Shown here one piece after another: positions 8,769 through 55,626 of a stretch of DNA of 64,000 bases (its first letter is position 1; each line of letters starts with the position of its first letter). A model generated the notes under the pieces. That model did not search any database. It was given only the letters and a program-made list of their open reading frames with translations, and had not been told where the DNA came from. A program made the position numbers and the translations under genes. The stretch spans positions 372,001 to 436,000 of the forward strand of contig NW_026570259.1 of assembly GCF_019649055.1 (NCBI RefSeq). The letters are read 5' to 3'. This DNA is from Paramacrobiotus metropolitanus. Lineage: Eukaryota; Tardigrada; Eutardigrada; Parachela; Macrobiotidae.

Positions 8769-11700
8769 ATGACACTAAGTCCGGACACAGTGGGCACTAC
8801 CATGTAAAATCGAATACAACTTTTTGGACTTCGCTTTCGGCGGTCGTTAACTGACACTACTTGCAGTTTCGTCAAAGGACCGCTCGGTGCCGACTTGCAG
8901 TTTGTTAACAACACTGAATTCGGTTATACCTGCGGACAGTGTGTGCGCTTTTTGTCCACATCAGATCTGCATCCTCGACAGAAGCCTAAGGATAAATTAT
9001 TTCATATACCGTTTCGAGAGTATGGCTTTCTCAGGACTGTTCCGGGGAAGGCCTTTTTCTCGCTCACGGCACTTCAGCGTAATCCATTGGTTTTCATATA
9101 TAAATATCCGGAATTCATTGAAGTGTCCCGGATAGACGGTACATTTTCCGAAGGATAATGCACAATGTAAAACACCTTTCCTGCTGTAATAATCTTCCCG
9201 ATAGCTTCTCTTACAGCTGTTTTCTAGAGATTGCCAATCATACTGTCATTTATTCTAGATAATACCGTTGGTGAACTTCTGGATGTTGCCTTTACGTACA
9301 CCAAACTTTTGCTGATACTCACTGGACAACCAGAATGCCAGATAACGATCTGGTTTGCCACCTTACAGCTTTAACGATACTGGAGCAACCTATTAAAAGA
9401 AATTTTTTGCAGGAACTGGGACACTCAGGTATTCGTCTCCAAGTATATACAGCGCGATCTGTACAGCCCAAACCTGCATCTTTCGTGTTCGCCTTGCAAC
9501 TGGCGGGATTTCTGTATAACAAGCGATTCATCCATCAGAATTTTCACAATCGATCACGGCTTGCCGGAAGAGGACAAAGGTGCTCCAGTGACCTGCGAAC
9601 GGTAACGAGTCCCTTGCCTTCTTGCACTGTACAACAGTTCTACATACCGCTGCATTTAGACCGTTTATAATCCCGTACGATGATTCCTCTCAAGCACGCC
9701 AAATTGGTGACCTTTTCCAAAGCGTCCATTCATCCAATCCAGCGGACTTTCTGGGCCTGGCAGCGATAGCGCAGGTGCCTCCTAATGTGTCTGAAAGCTT
9801 TATTGATGAAGTCTTGGGACGGAAAAGATTCACTCCGACATGTCATTCTTGGCACGTAGATGGCGCACTGTATATTGGTACTCTAGAGGGAAAACTATTG
9901 TACTTCAACCTGCACCACGGCGTTGCCCATCCAAATGTGTTAAGTTACACGCAGGACTACGGTGCACCAGTAAAACAGATTCTGTCGTTCAAAGAGGGAA
10001 CTGTGGTGCTTAGCGGAAATGGCGACGTTGACGTGCTTAAGCAGCATTCTCCGACCGATGTCAGCCATAATCCCATTATTCGACTAGAAGAAAATTTCAC
10101 ACAAATCTGGAGCAGTCCGTCGCGTGCGCAGTGGCTGGGAATAACAATAAACTTCGATCTGATGATGTTTCATCCATCCGGCACGTTGGACAAACATCTA
10201 CTTAGTCGGGATGAAATCGCTCCTTACACGTACCTGGAAAAATTCCATGATGGCTGTTTTTTATCAATACAAGAACCCGGCGTTTTGAAAATTTGGAACA
10301 ATGACAACGAAGCGTTACTGAGCCTTCAGTTATCCGTTCAAGTAACGGTCGCCGCCATCTGTCCAGCCTATCGTTGTATCTGCCTCGGCACAGATGTTGG
10401 CTATCTGTACTTTGTGGACTGTTTGAAATCCGCGCAAAGCGAATTCCCCCGGATGGTTCATAAAATGCGATTGTTTTCAGCTGCCGTAGTGAAACTGTTG
10501 TACAATTCTACAGGAAAAATTATTTTCGCTGTTGGAGAAAATGATCCAATGGCGCTAACGATCCTCTCTGGTTTACCATCTCGAAAATGGAATGTTATGG
10601 GAATCGTTAAAATGTCCATGGCGGTGGATGGTGTGCATTCAGTTTATTCTAACGATGGCTCCTTTGTGCTAGTAACGTTGACCGATAAGCCGAAAAAAGG
10701 AGCAACAGATGTGGTAACGTTTCAGTTGACCAATGCCTTGTTACAACAACCGGATGATTATTTGGCCAGCCCCCTGCATGATTTCGATGACACCAAATTG
10801 AATCTTCGCAGACTGAAGCTGAAAGTGCCTGTGGTAGCTATAGAGCTTGAAAGCCCAACGTCCGCATTTCTAGTGACATCTACAAAGCATTTAGCACACG
10901 CTTCTACTACTGACTGGATGAAGGCCCCTGATTTAATCAAACTAACCGAATCTTTGCCGTTTCCTATATGTCACCTAAAATTGTTTCCTGGTGCAAAATA
11001 CGTCCTGACCTGTAACAAACAAGGAACCACGGAAATCCGATTAACCGACGAGAATTTTACACTCCAGGTGTTCGACACTCTGCTTACCGGCACTCCGAGA
11101 TTGGTGATCATAAAACAACGGGGTTTAAGAAATCGCGTGTTCATGTTAACGGCTGAAGGGAGGCTGGTTTGTCGTTCACTGCCTGTGGTCAATGAACTGG
11201 TGACCGATGTCTGGGTTAAGCAAACCGATGAAATTCGCATAGAACTGGAAGCTTTAAGTGGACTTTCCGTTCTTGATAGGGACTTCCTTCTGCCATTAAG
11301 TTCTCCCGTTCCAGTCTTTTCAAGCGTTTCGGAAGCAGAAGAGGAGCCATGGCTTGAGATTAAAACACGCTTACATTTGGAAGACAAAGCTGTGAAAGAT
11401 TCACTCCACGCTGAAGGTCTGAAGGAACAATACGCAAAGCTGAAGAAGAAACTGTTAGACCTATATACCAAAAACACGTGGAAAATTGGATTGGAACGGT
11501 TGGCCGAAGTATCTTTTGAGTTGCTAGATCCTGGTTGGATAACTTCAAAAAAAAGACAAGAAAGCGAGATAATAGATGCTAAAGTTCGTGCAGCACTGGA
11601 GATAATCGAGCAGGAGCTTTATAAAGAGCGCCTCTTAGCACGCTATTGGAACCCCTTAGACACCAAGCTGCGTGGTCTACATGGATTACTGAGTGACCGC

Positions 11701-14376
11701 ACCATTAAAAATTTTCCCATTCGCCAACGCGCACCGAACGTGAAGGTAATGGAAGAAAGGGTACGATCGCACCGCTATTTGTGTCGATATCTTGACCACT
11801 TTCGTGGTACAAACGCGAATGAAGACAACAGAGAATCAATGAAAAATATGGACGAGAACGCAGTGTTTGTAAGCGGCCACGACTATGTCAAGCAGACCAT
11901 ACAATTGTTATGCAAAGGTGACGAGTCGCAGGCAGAATTATTTAGCTTATTGTACGACGATGACACGATCACATCCAGATTCCAAAGGATCGAACAGCTG
12001 CTATTGCTGCGCTCGAGCGGAATACTGATCAAAGAAGCTTTTAACCGGCGTTTTGATACACTTCTGAACGACAAAGTCCAGCTCTTGTCGGCATTGCACC
12101 ACAACTACGAGTTAATTCAGAAGGCCGTTGCAAAAGAAGCCAGTGAAATGCACCATCCTAACATGCCAAAAGTTGAATTTGCACTAGCCAGCGACGAGAA
12201 TCCCGGGCATGAATTGTACCAAGTAACCGACGAGCAGATTCTAGAACGTATGAAGCGGACCCAAATTTCTTTACCGTTCTTTCTGGACGTTAATGATTTA
12301 AACTATCCGCTAATTATGCAATCCCGTCAAAATGCAGCAGCCAACGCAGCACGCACTCGAGCCAAAGCCAACGCAGGTGGGATTTGACTAAAAGTAAAAT
12401 TTAAAATAAACTGTGAACGCTATCGTTTTATTTTCAGTAAATCTTGGAAAATCTCTTTCGGCTCTGCGTATCGCTTCCCATCAGCCGAAGATCACTATGC
12501 CAGTAGAAGAAATTCTGATTAATCCTGATGAATTAGCGCGGTCCTGTGATAAAATGATTACAACTTTCGAACAAGACTTGGAAAATTTGCAAGGGTTAAA
12601 AGAACGGGCAGTATTTGCAGCTAGCTTACTTGACCTCCGAGCTATGTATATTAGACAGCGCCTTCTTCATTTGGAACAAGTTAAAGCCTGGACCGCCGAC
12701 ATACAACACCGCTGGGAAACCACCACCAAACTTGCTGACTACATTAAAGCGAACGGCAGCCGATCTCACAAAATGATGCAGATAATTCGTCAACAATACG
12801 AAGACTGTGCTCGCAAAGATGCGGCACTGGACTTTTCTATCAAGCGAGAGCTACATGACCTTTCCGATCTGGATGGAAAACGGCTGGTGTCCATGTATCG
12901 TAAGCGACCACACCTCTTTCGCGGATTAAAACAGGCGACATATTTTGAAGGACAGATGTGTCGCCCCCGTACTGCTGAGCTAAAAGAAAAGGTCACAGAA
13001 GAATTCTACCATAGTTTACGGATGATTGAAGATCCCGAGCAAAGACCAGAGGATATTGATTACAGAATTTGGCATAGATACTGTGAACATCGTCGCAAAA
13101 AGATGGAATCGGAAATGGAATTCTGGTTGAAGCATATGGAGCTAGAACTGTATCAGGGCTTGCATTACGATTATATAGAATTAGAGAGAGCATTGCAAAC
13201 GGAAGTTGAGAATGCGCAGTCGCAGCTGGGAGAAGTCGAAAGAAAGCAAATAATGCTAGAAAAGAATACGGATCTGGTTCTTACTGTCACGCATGGGCAA
13301 ATCGAGGCCGAACTTGCACCATTCCAGGAATTTAACGAGCGAGTGATCTTGATACAACCGAAGCATATTCAAAACATGAATTTGCAGCTGCAGGTAAAGC
13401 AGACGCTTGCGGTTAGTAGCTGCATAAGCAGCACAGTACAGGTGCAGAATTAATTTTCAAACGTTACCGTATATAATTAGTTTATGTTTCTGTTGCAGAA
13501 CGGGTGCCGGAAAAAAATGAAAGTCTTGGAACAAGTTGTTAAATTTCGGGAAGCTATACTGCTGCTTCAGTGGGAAAGAGAAGTGCAAATGGAGAAGATT
13601 GTGGATTACCAATACGAAAGGAATTTTATAAGCAGTCAAGTTGCTCCGCGAGAGATTCGCAACGTGAGAATTTAGCTATTCGTTTTCTCATTCGTTAAAA
13701 CAGCTGCAATCCGACCTGTTACAGATGGTAGGGAAGGACCTAAACGAGTATCGCGATCAAACCTATCTAAGGTTGAAACAGAATCTGAGACAGCAAAAAG
13801 CGGTAAAAATACGTGTTCCAGCTATTTGGAATGTAATTTTCAGAACTTAATAGTTTATGTTTGTGCCCAGACATTCAAAAGAAACCTGGACTTACTGGAA
13901 TATAAGTTACAACTGCTGTACAAGAAGTTGGTAGCGCTGGAAAACGAGCGACACAATGCGGAAGCGACAATGCGGGGTTTGTCATGTGAGCTGCAGGAGC
14001 GCCAGGCAGTTGCCAATGACATCGGTAAAAGAATGATGAATTAAAAATAAAAAGCCAAAGTTTCCAGCACACTATTTTGAAATGGTGCTTTGAAAGGTTT
14101 GATTCCGTTGCAAATTAGTGGCATCAAATTATATTATTTATAATTGTATGAATAAATATTACCGTTATTGTTGCAAAATTTTTGATATCTGGTGATTTAG
14201 GTGTGCAATCTGATGTCATCGAAAGCGAGACCAGGCGCAATTTAATATGGCGAAGATTACGTATTCAGGCAGCCGTGAAGCAGCAGAAGAAACGAATGGA
14301 ATTTTATAAGGAAGAGCTCTTTCGTTGGCAGAAAAGAACCTTTCCTGCCATCTACCAAGACAAACGGAATCCCTGA
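8769..14376 (+). CDS. CFAP43: CFAP43, cilia- and flagella-associated protein 43
   Basis: Ten exons, all phases consistent: 8769-8803, 8867-9138, 9259-9352, 9413-9601, 9660-12376, 12438-13393, 13499-13663, 13704-13802, 13871-14024, 14201-14376, giving 1618 aa (human about 1665). Residues 1 to about 560 form a degenerate WD40 region. Landmarks are FVKGPLGADLQFVNN and GYTCGQCVRF at the first blade, LTGQPECQITIWNW, the CNWRDFCITSDSSIRIF strand, and TCHSWHVDGALYIGTLEGKL near residue 256, which parallels the CFAP43 THC/MHCW..LYIGCEEG strand. From about 600 onward it is charged coiled coil ending in RTFPA, as in CFAP43. By family, CFAP43 with CFAP44 tethers the inner dynein arm f motor head to the A-tubule, and loss causes sperm flagellar defects. 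It acts in the axoneme. The start is the first ATG in an exon that splices in frame through AT|GTAAAA. The gene is complete and shows no lesion. Confidence 0.95.
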
Positions 14377-14583: not shown

Positions 14584-17500
14584 TTAATCCAATTCCACTT
14601 TTTCTTCTTCCAAAAGATCCCTTAATCGTATTCGATTCGTCATGCATATGTGGCCCATTTGAGCGGAATACTTCGATACCACCTAAGCGAAAATTCCTTA
14701 CGGAAAGCTTTAGTTAGATGCATGACATTCAGTCATACCTTCTCAAGATCGGTTCTTGTCAAAACATAGACTTCGCAGTTGTCGGTGGCTCGCACAGTAC
14801 GAGAAGCCGGCCAATCGATAAGCAGCGCCTGCCAATTAACATTGCTTCCTCTCCGCAACACTCCAATCTCCACACCGCTCTCCACTTCCACCACTTCGCC
14901 GCGATGGAGAAAGTACATCTCCTCCACTAAATCGCCTTGCTGAATAACGTAATCCCCGGGCACAAATTGCACTTGGTGCAAACATGTGCTAATCATCCGG
15001 AGAAACGCATCCGATGCATCTCGAAAAAGTGGTAGCTGAAAAAACGTTGCTCTACTTAATTTGCGTATATGCAGTGGTAAATATTTGCCTTACTTCTCGC
15101 AGATCCCGTTGATGTACCGCGAAACAGATCTCCGCTCGCAAGCAGAATGGCGCATCATTCAGAACACTGTTGATATCATCCACACCTTTGTCCGTTTTCC
15201 ACAGATAATCGAAATATTTTTGTACTCGGTCGATGATTGTGCTATTAGCTTGCTGGTCTAACAGGTAAGTCTTAATGGCTTGAAAGCGGGATTCGAAGTT
15301 CTGCCGGCTGACCTCAAGGTTGGCCAAGGTGGAGGCAATATCCCCCACAATTATACCGAACAAAAACTTTCCCGCCACTTGGACAATACAGATGAAGATC
15401 CTCTCTAAATTTGTCGTGGGGACAATGTCGCCATAACCGGCTGTCGTGGCGGTTGTCGTGATCCAGTATAAAGTGACAATGTAGCGGCTACCGGGATTGC
15501 TGTTTTCCAGGTTGACCTTATTTGTCCATGCATTCTGAAAATCACAGTTTCCATCCGGACACGCGATGTAATAAGCCACACAGCAGAAGAAATGCAGCCA
15601 AAACAATAGTTGCGTGAAGGAATAGGTCAAGCGGACAAAGAGAATACTGATATCTAACTCCGCCAACCAACCGTGGAAAAATATCAGCACACGGTACACC
15701 ATTGGCGGTACTTTAAGCAGTCTCAAATATGCCCATACTTTTCCGCGAATGTCAACTGGTGCAGCCAAACTGAAGACTTCATATGGAAAAGATATCAACA
15801 GATCAACCAAAATACCGTGCTTTAAATAACGCTGGCGAATTTTCTTTGGGTTGAGTACTTCGTTTCCGAATTCATCCAGAAAGCCAGTTCGAAATTTCGC
15901 AATGATATTGATAAGAAATACCGATTCTAAGACGTAGTGTACTGCATATGACCGATCAGTAAACGCCACTTGGTACATTATTAGCATCGATAGAATCATG
16001 CGAATCATATTAACAAAATACTTGCTGAAGTATCGGATGTACTTGTCGTCCGATCGGAAAATATGTTTAGTCATCAAGCGCAACCTTTGACTAGTGGGTA
16101 CTTTCTTCTTCCGCACAGCAGCCAATGAATCTCGAAATCGATGACGCCGGGCTTGAGCAGCAGTCTTCCCAGCTGCATTCTTCTGGTCATCCTCGGCCGT
16201 GAGATTGGAAAGAATATCTTCTACCAACTTTGCTTTAACATCAGGAAAGTGCTCTAGAATTGCATCGAATTCGGCTCGAGTAACGTAATAAAGGTCACTG
16301 TTCTCCGCTGCCCGAAAACTCAACCGGGACGTTTCATTACGGAAAAAGGCAACTTCTCCAATCATCCGGCCTGAACGAATTTGCTGTGGCGCTTTAAATC
16401 CGCTACTGTAGTGCACTTCAATGCTGCCTCGGTACATAAAAAACAAATCTGTTCCGACATCATCCTGACGGATGACATACTCCCCTTCCATTACGTACAG
16501 CGGCTTCATTATGGTCGCCAGCATTTTCTTGAAACCAGTTGGTGTGTTCTTGAAAATTGATACTTGCTCGATCACCTTGCGGTAAAGCTGCAACGCTAAT
16601 TCCGATGTTAGAGAAGGCGGCAAACCGGCAATCAGAGTCTGCGGATCAATTCCGTGGGTACGTAGCCACAGATATTCGTAATATCGAACGATTCTGTGCT
16701 TTAACTTCTTCGACAAGTGCTCGTGGTGCATATACTGTTTGATACATTTCAAGCGGTCGAAAAAGCGAGAACGTCGCGCATCGGAATTGGCTTGTGCAGC
16801 AGCAATACTGGCGATGATGTAATTGAAGAAGATATACCCAGCAATCATGGTGGAAAGGAATATGAAATGTTCCGACTCATTCGTGGCACGGATGTCGCCG
16901 TACCCAACAACGGTTACAGTAGTAATGGCCCAGTAGAATCCCCCGACAAACTGATCCCAGGGCAACGTCGTACTATTGATACCAGCTAGTGATAAATATG
17001 AAGAGTCCATACAGACCTTTGACGTTTCGTTAAAAATCACTGATCCGTTGTCGTACGTTGTAGTGTCTAATAACAGACAGTTGGGTAGGGTTAATTTTGT
17101 GTAAAAATTATCCATCACTTATGCTCTTTGATGCACCTACTGCATGAAGTAACGTTGAATCCACAAGTTGATGGTGTGCACTGCACTGTATACGGCATCG
17201 CCGTAGCAAACATTACGAACAAAATAAAATAGTTGAGGAATTTTATTAAGAATGTGGTTGACTGGTCCTTTTTTATATCGGATTCCTATAATAAGAAAAA
17301 ATTTAAAAAAAGGCACCGATAACACCATAGATCTTCCTTACATAGAAAGCGAAAGCCTGGGGTACTCGGTACACTTGCAGTATCCGGTTCATTCGCAAAT
17401 AAACAGCAGCGTGTAACAGGTCCGTTCTTAGAAGTGTTCCTCCGCCGGTCATCAGTAAGCCCAGCTCAAAAGGAAACGCTGCCAATAGATCGATCCAAAA

Positions 17501-20500
17501 ACTGGAGCGCAGGTAGCGCCTCGCGGTCATATACGGATGTGTGACCAAGATGTTGGTCTCGTTAAAGTACTGAACGTGGAACTTGATGTAAATGTCCACA
17601 AACGCATAAATGTCGCACAGGTATAAGATCACGAACAACCAAAGATCGAAGAGCTGGTAAGTGACTTGCATTAAAACCAAGACAAAAATGACCGTTGCTT
17701 CTATCAAACGGATTTGCTCCCAGATATAGAGAAACCGTCCATCCACAGAAATAGTGCGGTTCATCAAAAGGCGATAAAGATACATGGTCAACGGGTGAAC
17801 GCTCAATGAGTTAAAGTCATCGCGGAAGCGAAGTCGCCGTTTTTGAGTCTCGCTCATTTTGACGGGAGACTCCTCTCGGCGCTTCTTGGATAACGCTTTT
17901 GCTAGTCGTGCTGCAACATAATCATCCACACACGATAATGCCAATCGTAAACTTGTAAAATTCATAATAATGATTAATCCATATGTTAAAGAACGTAATA
18001 CCTGCGCCGCACATATCGGCATAGTACTTTTGATCATGTGCAATGACTTTCATTTGATGCGAGAACCATTTGACAGACGATGCCACCTTATCAAATGCCG
18101 GACGGGGAATGGTTAGAACTTCACAGTGAGTGATTGTTTTAACGCTGACAATCTCATTGTGATTGAATAAAAACCCAATTTCTCCAAAATACATTCCGGG
18201 ATATAGTTCGCTGATAACCATACTGGGTTGTTCTGGATGAAAAATCTGACATACTCCACGACGAATCACGAAGAGCTCGTTAATTAAGTCACCATGCTGT
18301 AAAACAATTGTCATAGCTAGCATGATAATCATTGCCGGCTATGAGTAATACTACCTGAATTATGTATTCGCCTGGCGGGAACAAATATCTTCTAACAGCC
18401 GGCGCAAAGTTTTTTAAGATATTCTCCTCGATGTTCTTGAAAATCGGAACACCAGCCACCAAATGGATGAGATCCTCGACTTGAATCTCTTCTGTCAAAT
18501 GCTCTGGCAAATCTGCAGTCATGCTTTTCACACCTGGGATGTCTTCACCCTTGCTGATTGTCCATAACAGCGCTACCGAGTCAATTGCTCGTCGTTTCAC
18601 CAGTTCTGCCATCCTGTTATATTCCATGAAACCCTTCAGAGCGAACAGCCTCTCCTGAAATTCCACCCGCGGCCCATCCAGATTAGCCAAAGTTGCCGTA
18701 AGAACAGCCAGGCAGTAGCCGTACATGAGCATTCCTATCAGCATGACCACGTTGGCTAGAAACTGTTCCAACAGGTTTCGAGGGAAAATGTCCCCATAGC
18801 CGGCACTGGTCAGAAGCGTAACTGCATAATACATGGCAGCCGAATAACGGTAATCAAAAGTGAAGTCAATGGTGATATTGGGTGGATCGGCCGCGGTCCA
18901 TGATTCTGCCGGATCAGTGGGGCAGTGCTCCGGTGAGCACGTGCCGGCAATCAAAATGGAAGCACCCAACTGACTGCTTAATATGATGTAGATACAGAAC
19001 TTGATGGTCCGGATGGTGGCCATGGATGTTGCCAGCTCATCGCTTAGCCGGTCGAAAAATTTCGGAAGTTTGAATGCTTTAATACAACGATTCAGTCGCA
19101 AATACCCAAAATAGTGCATCTGTCGTTCATAAAAGTCCGCATCGCTTTCGGTGGGATCTTGTTGCAACGCCACGGTAAAAATTTCCATCGGAATGATGGC
19201 TAGAACATCCACCCAAAATGACCAAGACCCCAAATAACTGAATGCCATAGCACGATGATTGGAAATATTTCCGTTTGGCGTGATTATCTGGGTGAGGAAA
19301 CCAACAGCGAAATCGATGTATAATACGATATCGATGAAGTACACGAGGACAAGAATTCCGGCACCACCAGTGTCATCCAAAAGATTGTTGTAACTCTTGA
19401 AAAAGGCTGAGTATGTACCCACAATGAAGGTGCACAAGATCATAGCCACAATAAAGCGATCCCAAAAATACAAAAATATTCCGTCAGGATCTAGGCTGAA
19501 ATCCAAGAAAGTCTGCTTGGCATGATGGTACCTAAGATGCCGTGGTTAGTTGTCACTTGTGGAAACTGAAATCTGACGATGGAAATTATGCAGCTTGTGT
19601 TTAACCAAGTTTTACCGGGCAATTATTCGTCCTTTGAAAGCACTCGTATGGAAATCCACCAATTCGTCCATGGGATCTCGAATTCTGAACAGTTCCATCG
19701 ATTCGGACACGCGCAGTCTTTCCTGCGGTCGCCGAATTTTCATGGCTGACATTAACGATCGGATATTGGTGCCCATTTTCGGGGTCAGCTCCTCCAGTTT
19801 GGTGGCCAGGTCTTTCTCTTGCTTTTTCATACGCGCTGACTCATTCGTGTCGCTGCCGGCGAGAATACCTTCCTGTGTTTGTTGCTGACTCATGCCTGCT
19901 CGTTCTTCTGCCCTCCGCTAGAAAAAACTGCTAAAATAGTAGCGAAGACAGCAGCTGCAGTACGAGCGGATAAACTTACCCGTAGTTCTTCCGCAATTTC
20001 TGGATATGCTTGCAGACACGCCATTAGATCTTCGGTTCGCAGGATCACTAAGTCGCAGTGTGCAATTGCCCGGACGGAGTATTTTCTCGGCATACGAGTT
20101 ATTAAATTAATTTCCCCAAATACCTTGCCTGGTTTCAGCAGAAGTATCGGCACTTCGTTCTCATCATCGCTCAGAACTTCAAGGTGACCTTTCTGCACGT
20201 ACACCATGAGGTTACTCAGTTCGCCTTTCTTCATGACAATCTGATCGGGTAAGGCTAGCATGGGACGGAACTTCAGGCTAAGCATTCGTAGAAAACTAGC
20301 GTTGATATTCTGGAATAGCGGTGATTTATCAAAGATTTTTCCAGTTAGCTCCAAAGAGATTTCAGAACGCAAGGCAAAAGGCAGCTGATCGAAGAGTCCA
20401 GAGCTCGACATACCGCGGCTTCGTTCCCACAAATAGCGGTAGAAGTTGTTCACTTCTCGCACTAGCTCACTGGGTTGATTCTGATCCCGCAAGTAGTTCG

Positions 20501-21709
20501 TAATAGCGGCTACACGCATTTTGTAGCGAAACTGATTCACGTCAAGATTGGTAAGCATGGAGGTCACGCCGCCCTGGATGATGCCAAATAAGACGAGCGT
20601 ACCAACCAACTGAGTGCAGAGGGCGAAGAACTTCTCGCTCAAGGAAATTCCATGTACTTCGCCTAAACTAAAAACGCCGTAATGAACAGTCTAGGATAGG
20701 CAATCAGTGACGAATATTACCCGGTAGTGGTAGCGGTAGTAATGGTCCAGTATAACGAGTACATGTAGATCTCCGAAATCGTTGCATTGATGTGGACAAA
20801 GTCGGTTGTTCCCAAACCATGATCGAATGTGCCTGCGTAAATGTTACGATTGGGAACGGCAATCTTGTACTCTGGGTGAGTGATCTTGTCATCCGCGGAC
20901 GTGCCACCAGAATAGATCCATGATGGTGCTGAGCAGAGGTTCATACCGTCGCGAATATTACTCCATGTTGAACACGGGATCAAATACCAGATGCAAGCCG
21001 TCATGTGGAGAGTCATCCACGATAATACCGTGTAGTATATACTGCGTATAATGATCATATTTGCGCCGACGTGGGACTCCAGAAATCCAAGGTACTACAT
21101 AAGTCAGAGCTTGGATACGAGTACACAGATTTCAGGTGGGAATTTATTTTCCATGCACTTCCTATCAGCACTTACCCTGAAACCGCGATAGCCACATAAT
21201 AACCGATTCAACCTAAGGAACGCCAACACCGGCATTGTATTTGTGCTGGCTACGGCCACACAGACGATATCCGTTGGTAAAATCGCCAGGAGATCGACGA
21301 TCATATAGGTGTGCATGTACCAGTCCAATCGTGATTTTCCTTTCCGCATCTCAGGATTGCGAAGATCATGGGCGTAAAAGCGAGTGACCTTGCCAATAAA
21401 GTCGGCGCAGTTGAATACATCCAAAACATAGCCCAAAATTAACAGAGCAATATCGTACGGACTGAATGCCGCACAAAAGGATATGACAGTAACGTGCAAT
21501 ACGGAGCCGGCAGCCATGACCCCATCCCATAATTTGAACCAGTAAATACGCCGCTCCCGTCGCTCGTGAGCCAGCCATCCCCACTCGATCTCTTCCATGG
21601 CACCAAGCTTGGTCTGATTTCCCTCTTCGGCTTCATCGGTGGGAATGAGGGTTCGCTTGATGGCTTTTCCATGCTTTCTCACAGCGGTGCCAACTTTATT
21701 GTTGGGCAT
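14584..21709 (-). CDS. CNGK: CNGK-type channel: four CNG-channel repeats in one polypeptide
   Basis: Minus-strand exons 21709-21176, 21094-20721, 20667-19980, 19917-19616, 19531-18355, 18296-18002, 17910-17342, 17285 to about 17140, about 17109-15094, 15035-14739, 14682-14584, about 2160 aa. Four consecutive units each contain S1-S4 helices with an Arg/Lys-bearing S4 (such as FLRLNRLLCGYRGFR, YLRLNRCIKAFK, YLRMNRILQVYR), a pore helix and filter, a C-linker and a cyclic-nucleotide-binding fold. Filters in order: GLGE (split over 20722-20721/20667-20658), GYGD (18790-18801), GYGD (16894-16905), GYGD (15427-15438). Repeats I and II are joined in frame by the exon at 19917-19616, and phases match at nine of ten junctions, so this is one gene. 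By family, the sea urchin and zebrafish sperm CNGK channel has exactly this four-repeat design and mediates a K+ conductance; in sea urchin, cGMP binding to the third repeat opens it. The junction between exons 8 and 9, in the extracellular turret of repeat III, does not resolve cleanly. Neighbours CFAP43 and CCDC39 fit a flagellar role. Confidence 0.92.
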
Positions 21710-22402: not shown

Positions 22403-25400
22403 ATGTCAGTTGAACCCTTCATTATTCCGACCATGGAGCAGTCTGGGAGATATGATACCGAAAACAAGAAATCACCAGCCGTTTCATCCGTCTCGGAACA
22501 AATAGTATCGCCCGTGCAAACCGAAGAACCAACGCCCTGGACGAATGAACGGCTGCTGGAAAGCGGACGCAACTCGGATAATCCCGAGTATCTCATGGGT
22601 CATCCGCACAGTGTCGACCTCAGAGAGGGTGGCGTAGGTGTTGACGTGCACTCCATCGGTTTATGGGATGAAGAAGTCCTTGCACTGGAAAAGCAAGTAC
22701 ACTTAAACCGTCTTTTGGCACATCTGAACTCAGTAAAACGTAGAAATTCTTTCTTAGCTGGCCGAAAAGCTGGAGCGAGCGGAACAGTATAGGGAAAATA
22801 TGGAGCTCTTGAAAACGAAAAAACTTCGACGGAAACATTATATCGAAACTCTATCTACGCAGTTTCGTTCACTGCAGGTACTTCTACCTTTGCGGATTCG
22901 TCTGGGCTTAACATTCTCTGGAAATTTCTTGTTTGTTACTTTTTCTATGTTAAATTGTTAAATTATAGACGATATTTGCTTGTACAGGGCATAAAGGCTT
23001 TGAAAGAGCAGGAAGTTAGTGCTGCTCAAAAGCAAGTGGAACTGAAGCGACGGGAGACCGCTCACATTCGACTGGAGACGATGCGAACTAAAAACGAGAT
23101 CCAACATCTAGTTCAACGATTAGATAACGATCAGGTGCACGTTGTATTACTTCGTAGTTTGTACTGCCAGAAAATTGTACGCTATTATTATAACTGATTA
23201 TCGTTTACCCAACTTACGTTTACCCAACTTCTGAAAAATGTACGTTTACCCAACGTTCTCAGATACTGCTCATAAATGAATGCTTTTTGGAGTTTCGATT
23301 ACGTTGGTTCATCAAAATTCTGTGGTGTGTCAACTGACCGCTGCTTCCTCCGCAGACGATGATAGGTCGCTTAAAGAAGGAAATCGACGACATGCAAACG
23401 GAAATCGATCTGGACAGGGAGCTTATGGGCACGTGCCTAAATTACGCCGAAAAACACCAGGTGGAGTTCAATATGCTGAAGCAGTACTCGCTAGAGGACG
23501 AAGGAAAAATTAAAGAGTGTCGGTACCGCGTAGGCCGATTAGCTCTGGAAGACGAGGAGACGGCTAAGGAACTAGCCGGCATCGAGGTGGATGTGAAGAG
23601 TTTGCGACTGGAAGTGTCCAGGCTAAAAGAGAACTGTCAAAGCGTAATCCAAGAACGGACGGAAAAGACGGATAACTGGGACCAAATCAAGAGTAGAATA
23701 GCCGGTGCTGATGCCGACATGAAACAACAGCAGGAGGTATGTTATATCGGATGTTAAAAAAACAGAACTCACCAGTCAGTCACTAGTAACAAATTTCAGT
23801 TATATACAGTTATTCGCAGGTTATTCGCTCTGATTAACGGTAAAAGTTGTCAGCTTGTTTTGGTTCTGGAACGCGTTTTTGGTCTTTCGCCATTCATCCA
23901 AGTTGCAGTTCAGTGGTTGCCTCAGCATACAGAGTACTGTTATGCGATTCTGTGTGCAGGAAATAGATGCACTGGAGGCTAAATGTGCGGCAAAACAAGA
24001 GGCTCTGCAACGACAGAAAGACTTTTACGACTCGGAACTACGTAACAACCACGAAACGCAAAAAAAGATGGAGCTCACGGAGTCCAATGCCCAAAAAGCG
24101 CGAGAATATGTTTTTGAGATGGAACAGAAGAAACAAGAATTTTTGGATCAGGTGATACCATTGTTTCCTCCAAATAATAGGTAAATACACGAACTTATAC
24201 TAATTTTTGGTATTGCGTAGATCCATGTGATGGATAACGCTTGCTCCGCAAAACAACGGGAAATACGTCTGATTCAGTCTAGTATTAACGGTCTCCGTAA
24301 TCAAACTCGAAGCGTAAAAGAAGACATAAAGCGGTGGCAGGATCTAACAGCCGGTGTGGAAAGCCGACGCCGAAACCTCTCGGACCAAAATCTCACCGAC
24401 GAGGAGCGTCTGCAAGAGCTGAACAAAGCGTTGGACCAACGCGAGATGGTAGTCCGGTCAGCCGAACAGAATCTCGTTCGTCTGCGCGATCAAAACTTTA
24501 AGGACACCCAAAAAAACCTGGAAGCTAAAACACTGCTGGAGGCTATCATTTCCAACATTCAAGGCAGCAAAGTGTACATGGGCAGTCTGCAGCGTCAAAC
24601 AAGGCAGAAGAACGGCTTGGCTCGCAACCAAGCCCAGCAGATGTACGAACTACAGTATAAGATAACGCAGCTTAACCGGCGAATCTCTTTCATGGAGGGA
24701 ACAGATGTCGGGCCACCTGAGAAACCGTTAGGGGATATGAGAACGCTGAGTGCCAAGCAGGACAATCTCCAGAAAGAAATTGGTCTGATGCAGAGTCGGA
24801 TAATGAAACAAGACGAAATGATCAAATCACTGAAGAGAATTGTTGATCAGGAAGAAACCGATAAGACAAAAAAGGAGACAGCCTTAGCAGAGGTTATGCT
24901 GTATCTGCACACTACTCAGCGAACGTTGGATCGAGCGCAAAGCCGGAAAGTGGTAAGGCTGAAGCGTTTTAATAGCGGGCCGGCGAAATTGTGTTAAGTA
25001 TATTTCCGTTTTGTTAGGAAGGAGCGGCCGAGCTTAGTTCATCACGATTAAAGCTTCGGTACATCGCGGATAAAGCAGAAGAGAAACTGGACAGGGTGAC
25101 AAGTATTTCCATTCGGCAAGCTGAATTGGGCGGTGTAAGTACTGAAACAATGCAATTTGGTCATATCACAGTAGGTCTTTACTCGGATATTCTGGTGCGA
25201 TCTAGCTTTTTAAAGAACGCATGGCAATGATCCAAATGGAGCGCGAACAGTATAAAGCCCAGACCAAACGCATGGACGAACAGCGCACTTGGTTGACCAA
25301 AATGCTACGGGAGATGGAGAATCATCAACGCGGCATCAAAACTCGATTTGAACTGCTCACCATGCCGGTTGCGTTGGATCAGGATGAAAAAGACGCCGCT

Positions 25401-26573
25401 CGAGATGTCGTACAGATTCAAGCGGCTCTTTTTGTGAAGGTAACGGATTTTACTCTTCGGTACCGATTAATAACAACTGAGAAATATATGCTGTTTCAGG
25501 CAGCCAGGGAGCGTCAGGCCGTTAACGACCAGAAAGCACAGCTTATTCAAGACATACAGAAAGTCATGCAGGATAACTTTCGACTGAGACAGTTTTACGA
25601 GAAGTTTGAGAAACAGACCGGACAAATGAAGACTGAGCTTTCTCAAGTTGCAGAAACCAGTACGGGGTTATCAGTAAAGATTGCTCACACTGTGAATACT
25701 TTCATATTGAGCAGTGTACCCACATAACGTCATACTGAATTTTGACCACAGACGAAATACAGCAAAAGCACGATGCTGTTAACAATGAAATCGGATTTTT
25801 GCGAGGGAAACTACGAACCCTTGAAAACCAAGCCTACGGATATCAGGAAGAAATCAATGTACGTATCAAATGCATAAGATGAGCACGTATACTTAACTGA
25901 TTCTGGTACAATGTGTTAAACATAGTCATAGTGCTATAAACTGGATACCGGTATGCTGTTTGCTTAAACATGATATGCTATTAGAATCTTCGTAATACGA
26001 AGGAAAAGATGCTCCAACTGGGAGAGCAAATCGAGCACAGCATGAAGCAGGACCAAGAAGATACAAAGAAATTACAGGAGGAAATTACGGAACAACGTAA
26101 ACGGTTAGGACGAACTGTCAGCCAAAACGACGCCATGCACAAAGCTATCAAGCAGGCTCAACCGGACAACGTGGCTCAGATAAAAGTACAGATAAAACAA
26201 TGCACGCTCATTTACACACTCTTTCCACAAGCGTTAAACTCATGTATTTGGGCAACAGGCTAATATTGACATTAATGTCCGTACCGATGTGGAGCGTCTT
26301 CTGTTCTCAACTATAAGTCGATTCCTAAATGGAAGACCCGATATGATGGAATTAGTAGCAGGCTTATTTCAACAGGTTAGTGACAAATTTAAGAAGTATG
26401 AGGTGTATCTTTGATACGGAGTTTATACTGGGTGTCGCAGCGCAATTATTGTGATGCGTTTGTTTGTTCAGATGGCCGTGCAGATGTCTGAAGAGCTGAC
26501 AAAACTGCTGCTGAAGAAAGGTTCGGAATCAACCGTATCTCCTGGCTTCCGTGCGTCTATGGTTAGAATTTGA
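22403..26573 (+). CDS. CCDC39: CCDC39, axonemal 96-nm molecular ruler subunit
   Basis: Thirteen exons, every phase consistent: 22403-22696, 22758-22877, 22988-23134, 23356-23736, 23960-24151, 24221-24952, 25018-25132, 25216-25439, 25500-25659, 25752-25858, 25985-26185, 26259-26375, 26472-26573, giving 963 aa (human 941). After about 80 variable residues the protein is coiled coil to about residue 890. Matches in order to CCDC39: GLWDEEVLALEKQLAEKLE for the N-terminal WEDG..NKLLEDQLSKL; LMGTCLNYAEKHQ..LKQYSLEDEGKI for the AWLEES..LQKYAQQDDNKI block; ERTEKTDNWDQI for ERQELIKQWENTI; and KTRFELLTM for KNRYEILTV. By family, CCDC39 pairs with CCDC40 along doublets to set inner-arm, N-DRC and radial-spoke periodicity. 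For intron 1, a 25-nt intron is also possible (donor after 22736), but the 61-nt choice gives the better alignment. Complete, no lesion. Confidence 0.92.
23202..23254 (+). repeat. Three copies of CGTTTACCCAAC within CCDC39 intron 3
   Basis: Exact 12-mers at 23202-23213, 23217-23228 and 23243-23254 in the intron between exons 3 and 4. A small local tandem duplication with no known role. Confidence 0.6.
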
Positions 26574-34704: not shown

Positions 34705-37700
34705 ATGGCTCAAAGCCAGATGATCCATGGCGTTCCAGACCACCACAAAGAGCCAGTTTTGTTGCCTAGCCAATCGCACAGTGCACCAGCTTCGAAAAAC
34801 CTTCCGCCTCAAATTGTTTTGGAGGTGTCGAAAGAAGATTTGCGTAACGAAGGAGGAGACGTATCTGCTACCAGTCTTGCCGACAGCAGGAATCCACCCA
34901 AAGAGGTGTCATCCGCAGTTTCTAATTTGTTTTATCATAGATCAGCTGCAGAATTAGCACGTTCTCAGGACGATTTCACTGCCTCCAAGACTCGAGTTAC
35001 TGGTTCAAACTTTTCAGTAAATCATGAAGGAACTAAAGTCCAGTCCGCTCATTCAGTAGCAGATAATGAGCCCTCAAAGTATAGCCTCCATGGACAGCCG
35101 TCAGTCGTGCGCTCGCAATGGTCCACGCAAAATCTACCGCAAACAGCCTCAGTGCAGTCGCACGCCAGCGTACACGATGCAGCTCGTTCAGAGTATTCGG
35201 AGTTGCCTAAACAAACCGCTACGACCGACCAGAACCGACGAAATGAAAAGTCTGAAAGCAATGTGGTTCTGCCGACCAGACACCATGCTGTTGGGAGTGC
35301 GAAAACCGCTTCCTCCATTAATCCATCTGCTCACGCTCTGCACGAGACGAGGTCACAACTACATTTGGAAAAGTTGCATTCGACTGCACCGTTAGACAGT
35401 CAAGTTCCACCCAGTCAGGCGCTGCATAAAACAGCCTCCGTAACCCATTTTGAGAATCTTAACACTAAGGCGCATTCGGTGGAAAAAGGTCATCCACAAG
35501 AAACGCAGGATGAAATTACTGAACAACCGGTTAAAATTCCGGAAGTTTCCGAGCCACATAAGGCAGCAAATGGAAACCCAGCATAATGGGACCGTTCTCT
35601 GAATAACGAAAAAGCGAGGCGAAAAACGCAACGAAAGTCCGCAGACGTTCAAAGATGGACGTTATAATGGATCGTATTGCGCCGCCGGGAACCGGAATTA
35701 GTAACATTGGTGATCTTAAACCGAATGCAACGTGGAAATGGCGCAAAACATGGTGATCTGAACTGGCACGTTTCAACCGCAACCAACTTCCAGCGGGATT
35801 GAGCAGCAACGGCAAGGTTTTTCAACCAACTCTTTTGCCAGGCGCAAATGTACCGCTGCAGATCCGCCAGTACTTTACAGTATTCGGCCATACCGGCGAC
35901 GACGCCTCTGTTCCACTGTTCAATAAAAGAGCCTACGCAGCCTTGACTTCTGTGCCGCACGCAAAATGGCTGGATTTACACAAATTCCCACGACGACATC
36001 GCCAAAGTTAAGATCACATTTTGATCTTTGGAATCTTACACGCGCAAAGGACTCCATTACTGATCGAGTTAAACCAGTTGGTGGCACGGTGAAAAGGTAT
36101 CCGATACTCGATAACAGTCGATGGAATGTGAATTAAATGATGCTACAAAAATCTACTAATCATACGGTCCCTATTGCAGCATTTATACTGTCAGCGGCAT
36201 CGCGATTGAGCATGTCACCGATCTGCAACCAAACGGCTATTACGTAGCTGTTGGTCCTTACGAAAAATTCCATCCGTTGAATTACGAACCTGCCGGTCGG
36301 CATGATCATTTCCTACCAATGTCTGCTAAACATCCAAGTGTATATACCAAAGACGCAGCAGCAAGGGCCAGCGTGGGAATGAAGAGAAGACGAACATTTA
36401 TTCTCCGACTGAAGCGGAAGTCAGTTAACCAGAGTAATACAGGACAACATAGCGAAATCGAGCAGCCCATGACTATTCAGGCAGAGACTGTCCCGGAAAA
36501 TCAACCTCACAGCGGTTCAGAGCGAAGGTTGCATACTTCTGGGACAGGGCTAGGCGAACACCAACGTATAGATCTCCACTCGGTCAATCTCCCACCACAT
36601 TCAAAGCATTCGGCGCACGAACAACAACAACACGACAACAATCAGTTTGGTGACCCAGAATCAGAGATACTCGTTCACATGCGCCATGAAAACGAGAAAC
36701 CTCATGGCGTGCCATCAGTAACAGCCGAACCAACAGCACGAAGTCAGCATTTGCTGGCTGAAACTAATTCACGAACTAATCAGTCTCATCATTCACTGTC
36801 GCAGCCAAAAAGTGAAACCGTGGTGACCACACTAGAACCATCACGTTTACAACTACCCAAAGGTGGCTCGCATTTTTTGTCGCCAAAGCCATCCAAACAT
36901 TTGCGTACATCTAGTCAAAAAGACCTCCACTCCAGTCAAATGTCCGGATGGTCCAATGCTAGCAATTTTAGAGTAAGAGACTTGAGCAATAGTGCAACAA
37001 CATAGAACGCATCCGTAGTACGTTAAATTGGAATATAAGTCTAGAATTTTCATACTATTCACAAAAAGTTGCACGATTTATATTACCGCAGAACGCCCTG
37101 GATGGTCAGCTAGCCGATGGCTCTCATACTTCTATCAATAATGCGGATCTGCACTCTTTTCACGTAACCGGCCCGTCTCAGACATCAGTGGCGTTGGGAG
37201 GCGGCCATCCGGCTAGCTTGGTGGATCTAAAGGACCCCGCGTCCAATCAATCAGTAATTAGCGTGCAACCTGTGCCGTCCGAGGCACGAAACAAGGCAAG
37301 CAAAGAACATTCTTCGTTATCAATGAGACAAGTTGACAAATCGTCAACTAGCATATCCCCACTGGAAACATCGCCATCCCAGCAGTCACAACGTGTCGAA
37401 CCGTCAGAATCCGCGATCGAGGAGAACCGTTTGAATGGCTACGAAAATAATGTCATATCCAATACTAGTGTGGCTTCCTACTATTCCAGAGCTTCGGCAC
37501 AATCGAAAGCTCCTTCCGTAGCGAATGTTCTTGGACGACAACCACATAGTGACCATGACATCACAAGCGATAGCAACGCACGTGTGCACGTGAACGATGG
37601 CAATGTTGAGGAACAAACCTTGGACAAAGCCGTTGAGGAGAGTCACCAACCTGTCGAGGTGGCACCCCCTATGACAGATGAACCACCACCTACAGCGGCA

Positions 37701-53281: not shown

Positions 53282-54324
53282 CTTCACGGAAGATAGGACA
53301 CAACACAACAAAATACCCGAAGATCAATCTTTAAGCTGCCTTCGATATCATCAAATGGAAATTGACATCCACACTGCAAATAAAGCAAGGAGCCATCAAG
53401 ACACAACAAGGCAAGAGCTTCGTAACCAGAGCTTGGTCGGATTACGAGACCAAGAAAGGATCAAGTGTTTTATCCACTGATGCAGCGTACTTCGTGTTCG
53501 TATGCTTTCGTACAATTAGGGTTAAACTCGTAGCTTCCTTCGAACTTACAAAATTTAACAAGCAATAGGCGAAATTTTCAAAACAGCAACCCTGAATGAC
53601 GATGCAAAAAACACGATATTTTCCGAAAATTTCGCAGCCATCCAGAAATGGCAAGAAAATGTAAAATTTGAAAACCTGTTTATGAGTTTCTTCGTGATCA
53701 AGCTCGTTGAATAGGCTGTGCTCTGTGTCTGTGCAGACACTGGAGAGCTGAACTATATGCCCCAGTTTCTGCTGTGTGTTGAATGCATGCAAGTTCCTAA
53801 GTTGGGCAAAGCTTCGACACGCTGCTGGTAATTACATAATAATCAGGTATAGTACGTGCTGTATGTCTTTGTGCCTGTACTGCCTGGTGGCTCGTTCCTC
53901 ACCATCAGCCTTCGCTTGGTGTTGTGACTGTTTTAAAATTTTACAGTACGCTTTACTGCCTTTACATAAAACGAACTATTTGAAAAAAAAATAATTTTTG
54001 AACTTTCATTCAGTTTCTTTCGGATATTCCTTTTGCAGCTCTTTGCTTTGTATAACTTTTGTTTTCTGCGGAGGTGTTTGGCTGTCTTGTACTGCAAACA
54101 GCAAACCGCAAACGAACAACATTCAAGAACATTATAAATCTGTCATTGATTTGTTTAAAGTTGGGTTTAGTTTGGTTTGAAACTTTGATGTTTGTTCGTA
54201 TCAGCGAATCTCGGAGTTGAAGTGTTGACGGTGTTGCTTGCGTTTAGTTCCCAGTTTTATTGCTCGCATATCAGGTTTCCTATCGGGATAGTCAGATAGT
54301 GGATGTGGGCTGCAGGATACAAGA
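53282..54324. other. Divergent intergenic region
   Basis: 1043 bp between the start codons of RB1CC1 (-) and the DUF547 gene (+). Open frames at 53362-53792 on both strands are mutually overlapping and unsupported. No regulatory element recognised with confidence. Confidence 0.4.
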
Positions 54325-55626
54325 ATGGGTACTCGGTTTTCAAAATCTGCATCCCCATATATCCTCAATCAGCCAAAGACCGTCACAGCTTCTCCCACTT
54401 CGGACTCGGAGGCAGCGACCACAGCAAGCAACATCCTGTTACTAGCGGAAAGACTGGAGCAGTGCATGCGGCGCCTGCAAGGATGTTTTTTATCAGCTGA
54501 CGGTAAAGCGATGGATTATCTGGGAATGAAGAATTCTCCACAGTTTGTTGAGTTTGTGAATTGTGCCGTGGAACTGCAGCAGGCATCCTTGACACCTTTG
54601 TCTGGTGTGAGCAACGAGAGCCTGCGGAAAGCCTTTTTCATAAACATCTACAATCTAATGACAATGCATGCGTTGATAGAATTGTCGGCCCGTGATACAG
54701 GCATTCCGCGCAGCATGTTAGACGTCAAGGATTTCTGGCGGAGTTTTGAGTATAAAATTGGCGGTTTAACATTTTCCCTGGATGATATCGAGCACGGGAT
54801 TCTGCGCGGGAATAGACCGCATCCGCGTGATCTCTGGAGCAGGTGCGTAAAAAAAATTAGGCAATGCGATCTTTCCGTATCAGTTTTGACATTCAGTGAA
54901 TTTGATTGCTTATTTTTGCCTTTTCTGAGTTCCTGCTTATTTAAAATTACGTTACATACAGATAAACTGGCAACTGCATGAGTCTGCATCCACCGTATAC
55001 AGTAATCAGCTCTATATCATTAACTATGATGTATCACGTGGATGCATTTTTTCTTAACCACTTTTGAGTCAGTAAATTGTAAGCAAATAAAAAATAGCTG
55101 CTATAACCTGTTTATTTTTATGTGCTGTTTTTGGTTTTTATAATTCGTTGATAATTTGATGAATCTTTAGTTTTATAATTTAAAATTATCTTTAGTTGTA
55201 ATTAACTGAATATCCTGCAGGTGCTATTTCAATGCCAAGGACGAACGAGTTCCTTTGGCGTTGTCCCAGTGTGATCCACGCATTCATTTCTGCTTAAATT
55301 GCGGAGCACAGGCATGTCCGCGGGTCTCCGTTTACAGTGGAACGGACACCGGCAGCTTGGAATCAGCTCTGAACGGCGCCGCGAAAGCCTTCTGCGCGGA
55401 GAATATCGTGCTGGACGGGACACGCAATGAAATCCACTTGTCAAAAATCTTCCAGTGGTACGAGCAAGATTTCGGCAGCGACCGGACGGGGATGTTGGCC
55501 AGGGTTTCCGGTTGGTTGAATGACGATAAGGAGGTACAGCTGCGTGCGCTTATGTCGAAGGAAGCCAAAGTTATCTTTGTTCCTTATGATTGGAGAGTTA
55601 ACAGCACAAGCCAGGCTGGTGCTTAG
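54325..55626 (+). CDS. DUF547 domain protein with predicted N-myristoylation site, 307 aa
   Basis: Two exons, 54325-54842 and 55221-55626, joined in phase 2 (AG|GTGCGT, CTGCAG). Residues about 90-190 carry the DUF547 core: KAFFINIYNLMTMHALIE, then a D-V-K-D-F-W and FSLDDIEHGILRGNRPHP block. Exon 2 continues with SQCDPRIHFCLNCGAQACP and the C-terminal EIHLSKIFQWYEQDF, both conserved in the family. The protein begins MGTRFS, fitting the MGxxxS N-myristoylation consensus, so membrane attachment is likely. The biochemical role of DUF547 is not established. Length and order match animal single-domain members. Confidence 0.88.

Follow-up and report, generated by a model that had tools for sequence, protein, structure and literature searches.

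Can four complete channel units be carried by one polypeptide in a tardigrade, and if so, to which family does that channel belong and in which cells does it act? The question is raised by a locus of Paramacrobiotus metropolitanus (NCBI RefSeq assembly GCF_019649055.1, contig NW_026570259.1, positions 372,001 to 436,000 of the forward strand; the window, below, means this whole stretch of 64,000 nucleotides). A reading made from the sequence alone had proposed that four cyclic-nucleotide-gated (CNG) channel repeats are fused here in one gene of roughly 2160 residues, and that this gene encodes a CNGK channel. The gene, termed copy A, does encode one polypeptide with four repeats, each composed of transmembrane segments S1-S6 and a cyclic-nucleotide-binding domain (CNBD). 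From the ATG at 21709 to the stop at 14584 the spliced frame is uninterrupted, giving 2150 residues, very close to the length proposed. The Pfam models Ion_trans (44-62 bits, gathering cut-off 25) and cNMP_binding (46-56 bits, gathering cut-off 27.5) match all four repeats, and the fusion is borne out by these domains and by a full-length paralogue.

The ten introns of copy A (81, 53, 62, 84, 58, 91, 56, 74, 58 and 56 nt) are all GT-AG and in phase. Nine of the ten junctions had been read as keeping phase, which stands, but the tenth does so too, by way of the 74-nt intron 8 (donor TGCA/GTAGGTGC, acceptor ctgttattag/AC, with slashes at the exon boundaries), whose size is like that of its neighbours. 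Introns of 19-36 nt at this junction were ruled out, since they are either too short or break the frame. The introns in the linkers between repeats I and II and between II and III measure only 84 and 91 nt, and a single unbroken exon of 1973 nt holds both repeat III and repeat IV; there is therefore no space for the promoters and terminators of separate genes. Thus, with in-phase introns of 53-91 nt and two repeats inside one exon, it is barely credible that four adjacent channel genes have been misjoined, or that the locus is a recent tandem array. AlphaFold prediction of the repeat III-IV exon (two sequences) gave a pLDDT (predicted local distance difference test) score of 34 and was unusable.

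A whole-genome search with the copy A protein recovered a second full-length four-repeat gene, copy B, on another contig (G000:C40:975.2-984.4 kb), for which spliced alignment yields a model of 2143 residues in 15 exons. The two proteins are 57% identical over 2158 aligned positions, and five introns lie at identical residue and phase in both genes, including the phase-2 intron that splits the repeat I filter. An independent paralogue that retains the whole architecture at this level of identity excludes chance, and its repeat order, the same as in copy A, already contradicts misjoining. In linkers I-II and II-III, third codon positions change well above second positions between the copies, indicating coding constraint; linker III-IV can vary freely, yet lies within an exon in both. 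Synonymous change between the copies is saturated, and both the duplication and the fusion are therefore old.

The relationships among the repeats were examined in a tree containing those of both copies, 11 CNG channels and one ERG channel from the same genome, and SthK. Each copy A repeat pairs with the same-numbered repeat of copy B with support of 100/100 and 54-64% identity (62% for repeat I), while repeats inside one gene are only 19-25% alike, no nearer to each other than to CNG or ERG. The repeats thus do not cluster as the lineage-specific array against which the sequence-only reading had cautioned; such an array, or a recent one, is ruled out by the in-register pairing together with the low identity within each gene. 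Deep nodes are weak, repeats II and III being grouped at 89.8/88.

By its architecture, filters and CNBDs, copy A is very probably a CNGK-type channel. It resembles sea urchin CNGK (tetraKCNG; ApCNGK of Arbacia punctulata) in having four repeats of six transmembrane segments (6TM) and a CNBD in one polypeptide, with K+-type filters. Zebrafish DrCNGK likewise has four repeats, comes from a non-marine animal and has lost the Arg of CNBD II; unlike the tardigrade proteins, it carries a 42-residue insert in the C-linker of repeat III and is gated by pH (PMC4749565), and in the tardigrade copies the Arg is also lost from CNBDs III and IV. The similarity to four-domain Nav and Cav channels is one of layout only, four linked 6TM repeats, as these channels lack a CNBD and have a different filter. 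Animal CNGA and CNGB channels, with at least 11 single-unit members in the tardigrade genome, share the 6TM, C-linker and CNBD plan, but they have a single repeat, lack a GYG filter and form a separate clade (100/100 for the 11 in the tree). A single-unit CNG channel was accordingly ruled out for copy A, whose repeats fall outside that clade and include GYG.

The CNGA/CNGB-type genes of this genome (L026-L036, L058-L061) include some with unusual pores, among them L030 and L058, whose pore loops are acidic and contain glycine. L058 (on C229) and L060 (on C42) are apparently near-identical copies.

Tardigrades might instead have built a four-repeat channel of their own out of CNG or KCNH subunits, converging on CNGK. 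The tree leaves some room for this, as it holds no CNGK reference, is weak at its deep nodes and does not unite the repeats in a supported clade. Against it, the repeats differ from each other (19-27% identity outside the in-register pairs) as much as they do from CNG and ERG, the in-genome CNG channels keep to their own clade, and the fusion is old. CNGKs have been described in choanoflagellates, sponges, cnidarians and deuterostomes, mainly marine, and in freshwater fish (PMC4749565); vertical descent is the simpler account of this distribution, and independent assembly is improbable. No CNGK sequence from another source was found in the viral contigs or prokaryote genomes searched or among the PDB matches listed. 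No paper on CNGK in tardigrades was found in the open-access literature, which does not establish a first report.

Three observations sit less easily with a CNGK of the described kind. In both copies repeat I has a GLGE filter, against GYGD in each of the other three repeats. GLG is also used in the second pores of some K2P channels. For described CNGKs, including ApCNGK, the filter is given as GYG or GFG (PMC4749565). Second, the site through which cGMP gates ApCNGK is CNBD III (PMC4749565), and in both tardigrade copies this domain is without its Arg. Third, the published affinity of CNGK repeat I for III and of II for IV (PMC7576140) was not recovered in the tree, with its weak deep nodes. 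The proposal of one fused CNGK-type channel therefore holds as regards structure, whereas the direct transfer of sea urchin physiology is complicated by the repeat I filter and the loss of the CNBD III Arg.

The Glu and Arg of the phosphate-binding cassette are both kept only in CNBD I, again in both copies, which makes that domain the best candidate for the cyclic-nucleotide sensor. If the two proteins do sense cyclic nucleotides, the gating site has probably shifted from CNBD III to CNBD I. Retained ligand binding fits the conservation of both residues in paralogues whose first repeats are so similar. It must be weighed against the suggestion that the channel, though CNGK-type, is gated by another cue (intracellular pH, for instance, as in zebrafish) and keeps its CNBDs for a structural purpose. 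The canonical Arg is gone from three of the four CNBDs in both paralogues, CNBD IV has lost the FGE motif as well, and zebrafish CNGK is pH-gated despite CNBDs that look largely intact (PMC4749565). Gating by such a cue is a serious contender, falling somewhat short of an even chance.

As to where the channel acts, its most likely role is in sperm, a reading that is favoured on balance. In sea urchin sperm, CNGK hyperpolarises the cell, the Na+/H+ exchanger sNHE alkalinises it and CatSper admits Ca2+, in series (PMC4749565, PMC6660944). In the tardigrade, the four repeats would come together as a pseudotetramer with a single K+-selective pore at its centre; opening of this pore in sperm would lead to K+ efflux and hyperpolarisation, which would in turn activate the voltage-sensing sNHE, and the resulting alkaline flagellum would enable Ca2+ entry via CatSper.

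As in the sea urchin, sNHE and CatSper genes are encoded in the same genome as the channel. Exons for the exchanger, voltage sensor and CNBD of an sNHE/SLC9C1 gene (G000:C39:255.7-261.2 kb, L057) lie on the same contig as copy A, about 125 kb away, and the identity of this gene is supported by a match of 3e-106 versus 3e-56 for the next family. A CatSper-beta C-terminal domain is present (G000:C261:33336-34055, L042 and L056; Pfam 2.3e-29, PDB 1.3e-16). A further gene (G000:C29:985.8-987.6 kb, L052) encodes a CatSper3-like channel that has one domain and a TTDNW pore; its match spans the length of CatSper3, with Cav channels scoring higher when their four domains are summed. An HCN N-terminal domain is also encoded. 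Judged by these matches, the genome encodes a large part of the cascade known from sea urchin sperm, and together they make a role in sperm more plausible; zebrafish, in contrast, has no CatSper (PMC4749565). Among the male-biased genes of P. metropolitanus, cyclic-nucleotide biosynthesis and ion transport are over-represented (PMC11191345), and the sperm of Paramacrobiotus are released externally, reach the female by swimming and collect at her cloaca (PMC10127009).

The gene might instead work in neurons or sensory cells. That is unlikely, though less so than independent assembly, given that sperm cascade partners are encoded in the genome and that motile-axoneme genes flank copy A on both sides, the sequence-only reading having correctly placed it beside such genes, now matched to CFAP43 and CCDC39. 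Two points temper the assignment to sperm. The axonemal neighbours are circumstantial, and profile models of CatSper-delta and CatSper-gamma matched nothing in the genome, a search run without a positive control that does not show absence. The neighbours of copy B include no recognised axonemal domain.

A broader proposal can be offered only tentatively: that an ecdysozoan retains the CNGK-sNHE-CatSper cascade, with two ancient paralogues that are now gated at CNBD I instead of CNBD III and are unlike each other at the Na+-block position of the pore, providing two differently tuned sperm K+ channels. Three of the four ApCNGK repeats have a Thr immediately ahead of the filter, a feature linked to Na+ block (PMC4749565); from repeat I to repeat IV, copy A has T, A, V, A at this position and copy B has V, I, T, T. 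One such Thr in four and two in four are a poor fit to a clean split between freshwater and seawater, and the tardigrade, unlike the sea urchin, is limnoterrestrial and has two genes. The paralogues thus offer a natural test both of the gating CNBD and of the proposed link between pore Thr and salinity. As the animal can be cultured, and a published genome, RNA-seq from both sexes and films of its sperm are available, the CNGK-sNHE-CatSper series would be testable in a non-marine ecdysozoan.

Table 1. Features of copy A and its neighbours, in window coordinates.
Feature	Position	Strand	Details and evidence
CNGK-type gene (copy A), complete	14584..21709	-	2150 aa, 11 exons; in-phase GT-AG model; paralogue with same architecture
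Copy A exons	21709-21176, 21094-20721, 20667-19980, 19917-19616, 19531-18355, 18296-18002, 17910-17342, 17285-17141, 17066-15094, 15035-14739, 14682-14584	-	
Intron 8	17067-17140	-	74 nt, phase 1; paralogue intron at about the same position
Repeat I (S1-S6 + CNBD)	19983..21562	-	aa 50-531; Pfam Ion_trans and cNMP_binding above cut-off
Repeat II (S1-S6 + CNBD)	18051..19509	-	aa 641-1107; Pfam Ion_trans and cNMP_binding
Repeat III (S1-S6 + CNBD)	16219..17761	-	aa 1174-1644; Pfam; phmmer to SthK 3e-38
Repeat IV (S1-S6 + CNBD)	14647..16056	-	aa 1699-2130; Pfam; best PDB matches SKOR, SthK, CNGA
Repeat I selectivity filter	20658..20728	-	TTGLGE; split by phase-2 intron kept in paralogue
Repeat II selectivity filter	18790..18807	-	SAGYGD
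Repeat III selectivity filter	16894..16911	-	VVGYGD
Repeat IV selectivity filter	15427..15444	-	TAGYGD
CNBD I phosphate-binding cassette	20067..20120	-	FGE...PRK, retaining the canonical Glu and Arg; gapless alignment to SthK and to CNGs of this genome
CNBD II phosphate-binding cassette	18135..18188	-	Arg position Glu in both paralogues; gapless alignment
CNBD III phosphate-binding cassette	16309..16362	-	Arg position Ser (Ala in paralogue); gapless alignment; phmmer alignment to SthK
CNBD IV phosphate-binding cassette	14787..14837	-	FGE replaced by NWQ, Arg position Ala; gapless alignment
CFAP43 coiled-coil exons (axonemal)	9592..13450	+	Convergent with copy A; Pfam CC_Cfap43 47.5 and 66.6 bits, cut-off 27
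CCDC39-like gene (axonemal)	22403..25727	+	Head-to-head with copy A, extent approximate; phmmer to CCDC39 of 8j07, 2.1e-15, query residues 96-642

Elsewhere in the genome, two exons at C3:460 kb match SAHS1 of Ramazzottius (4e-24), a member of the tardigrade-specific SAHS family, and only SAHS chains were reported for them, which bears out the assignment to tardigrades. A lipocalin search yielded just an ordinary FABP. Within the window, a weak doublecortin (DCX) match, below cut-off, lies at 36160-37002. The plus strand also carries, at 31.4-34.1 kb, a coiled-coil protein whose N-terminus is very rich in Lys, and exons of a DUF547 domain at 54292-55623.
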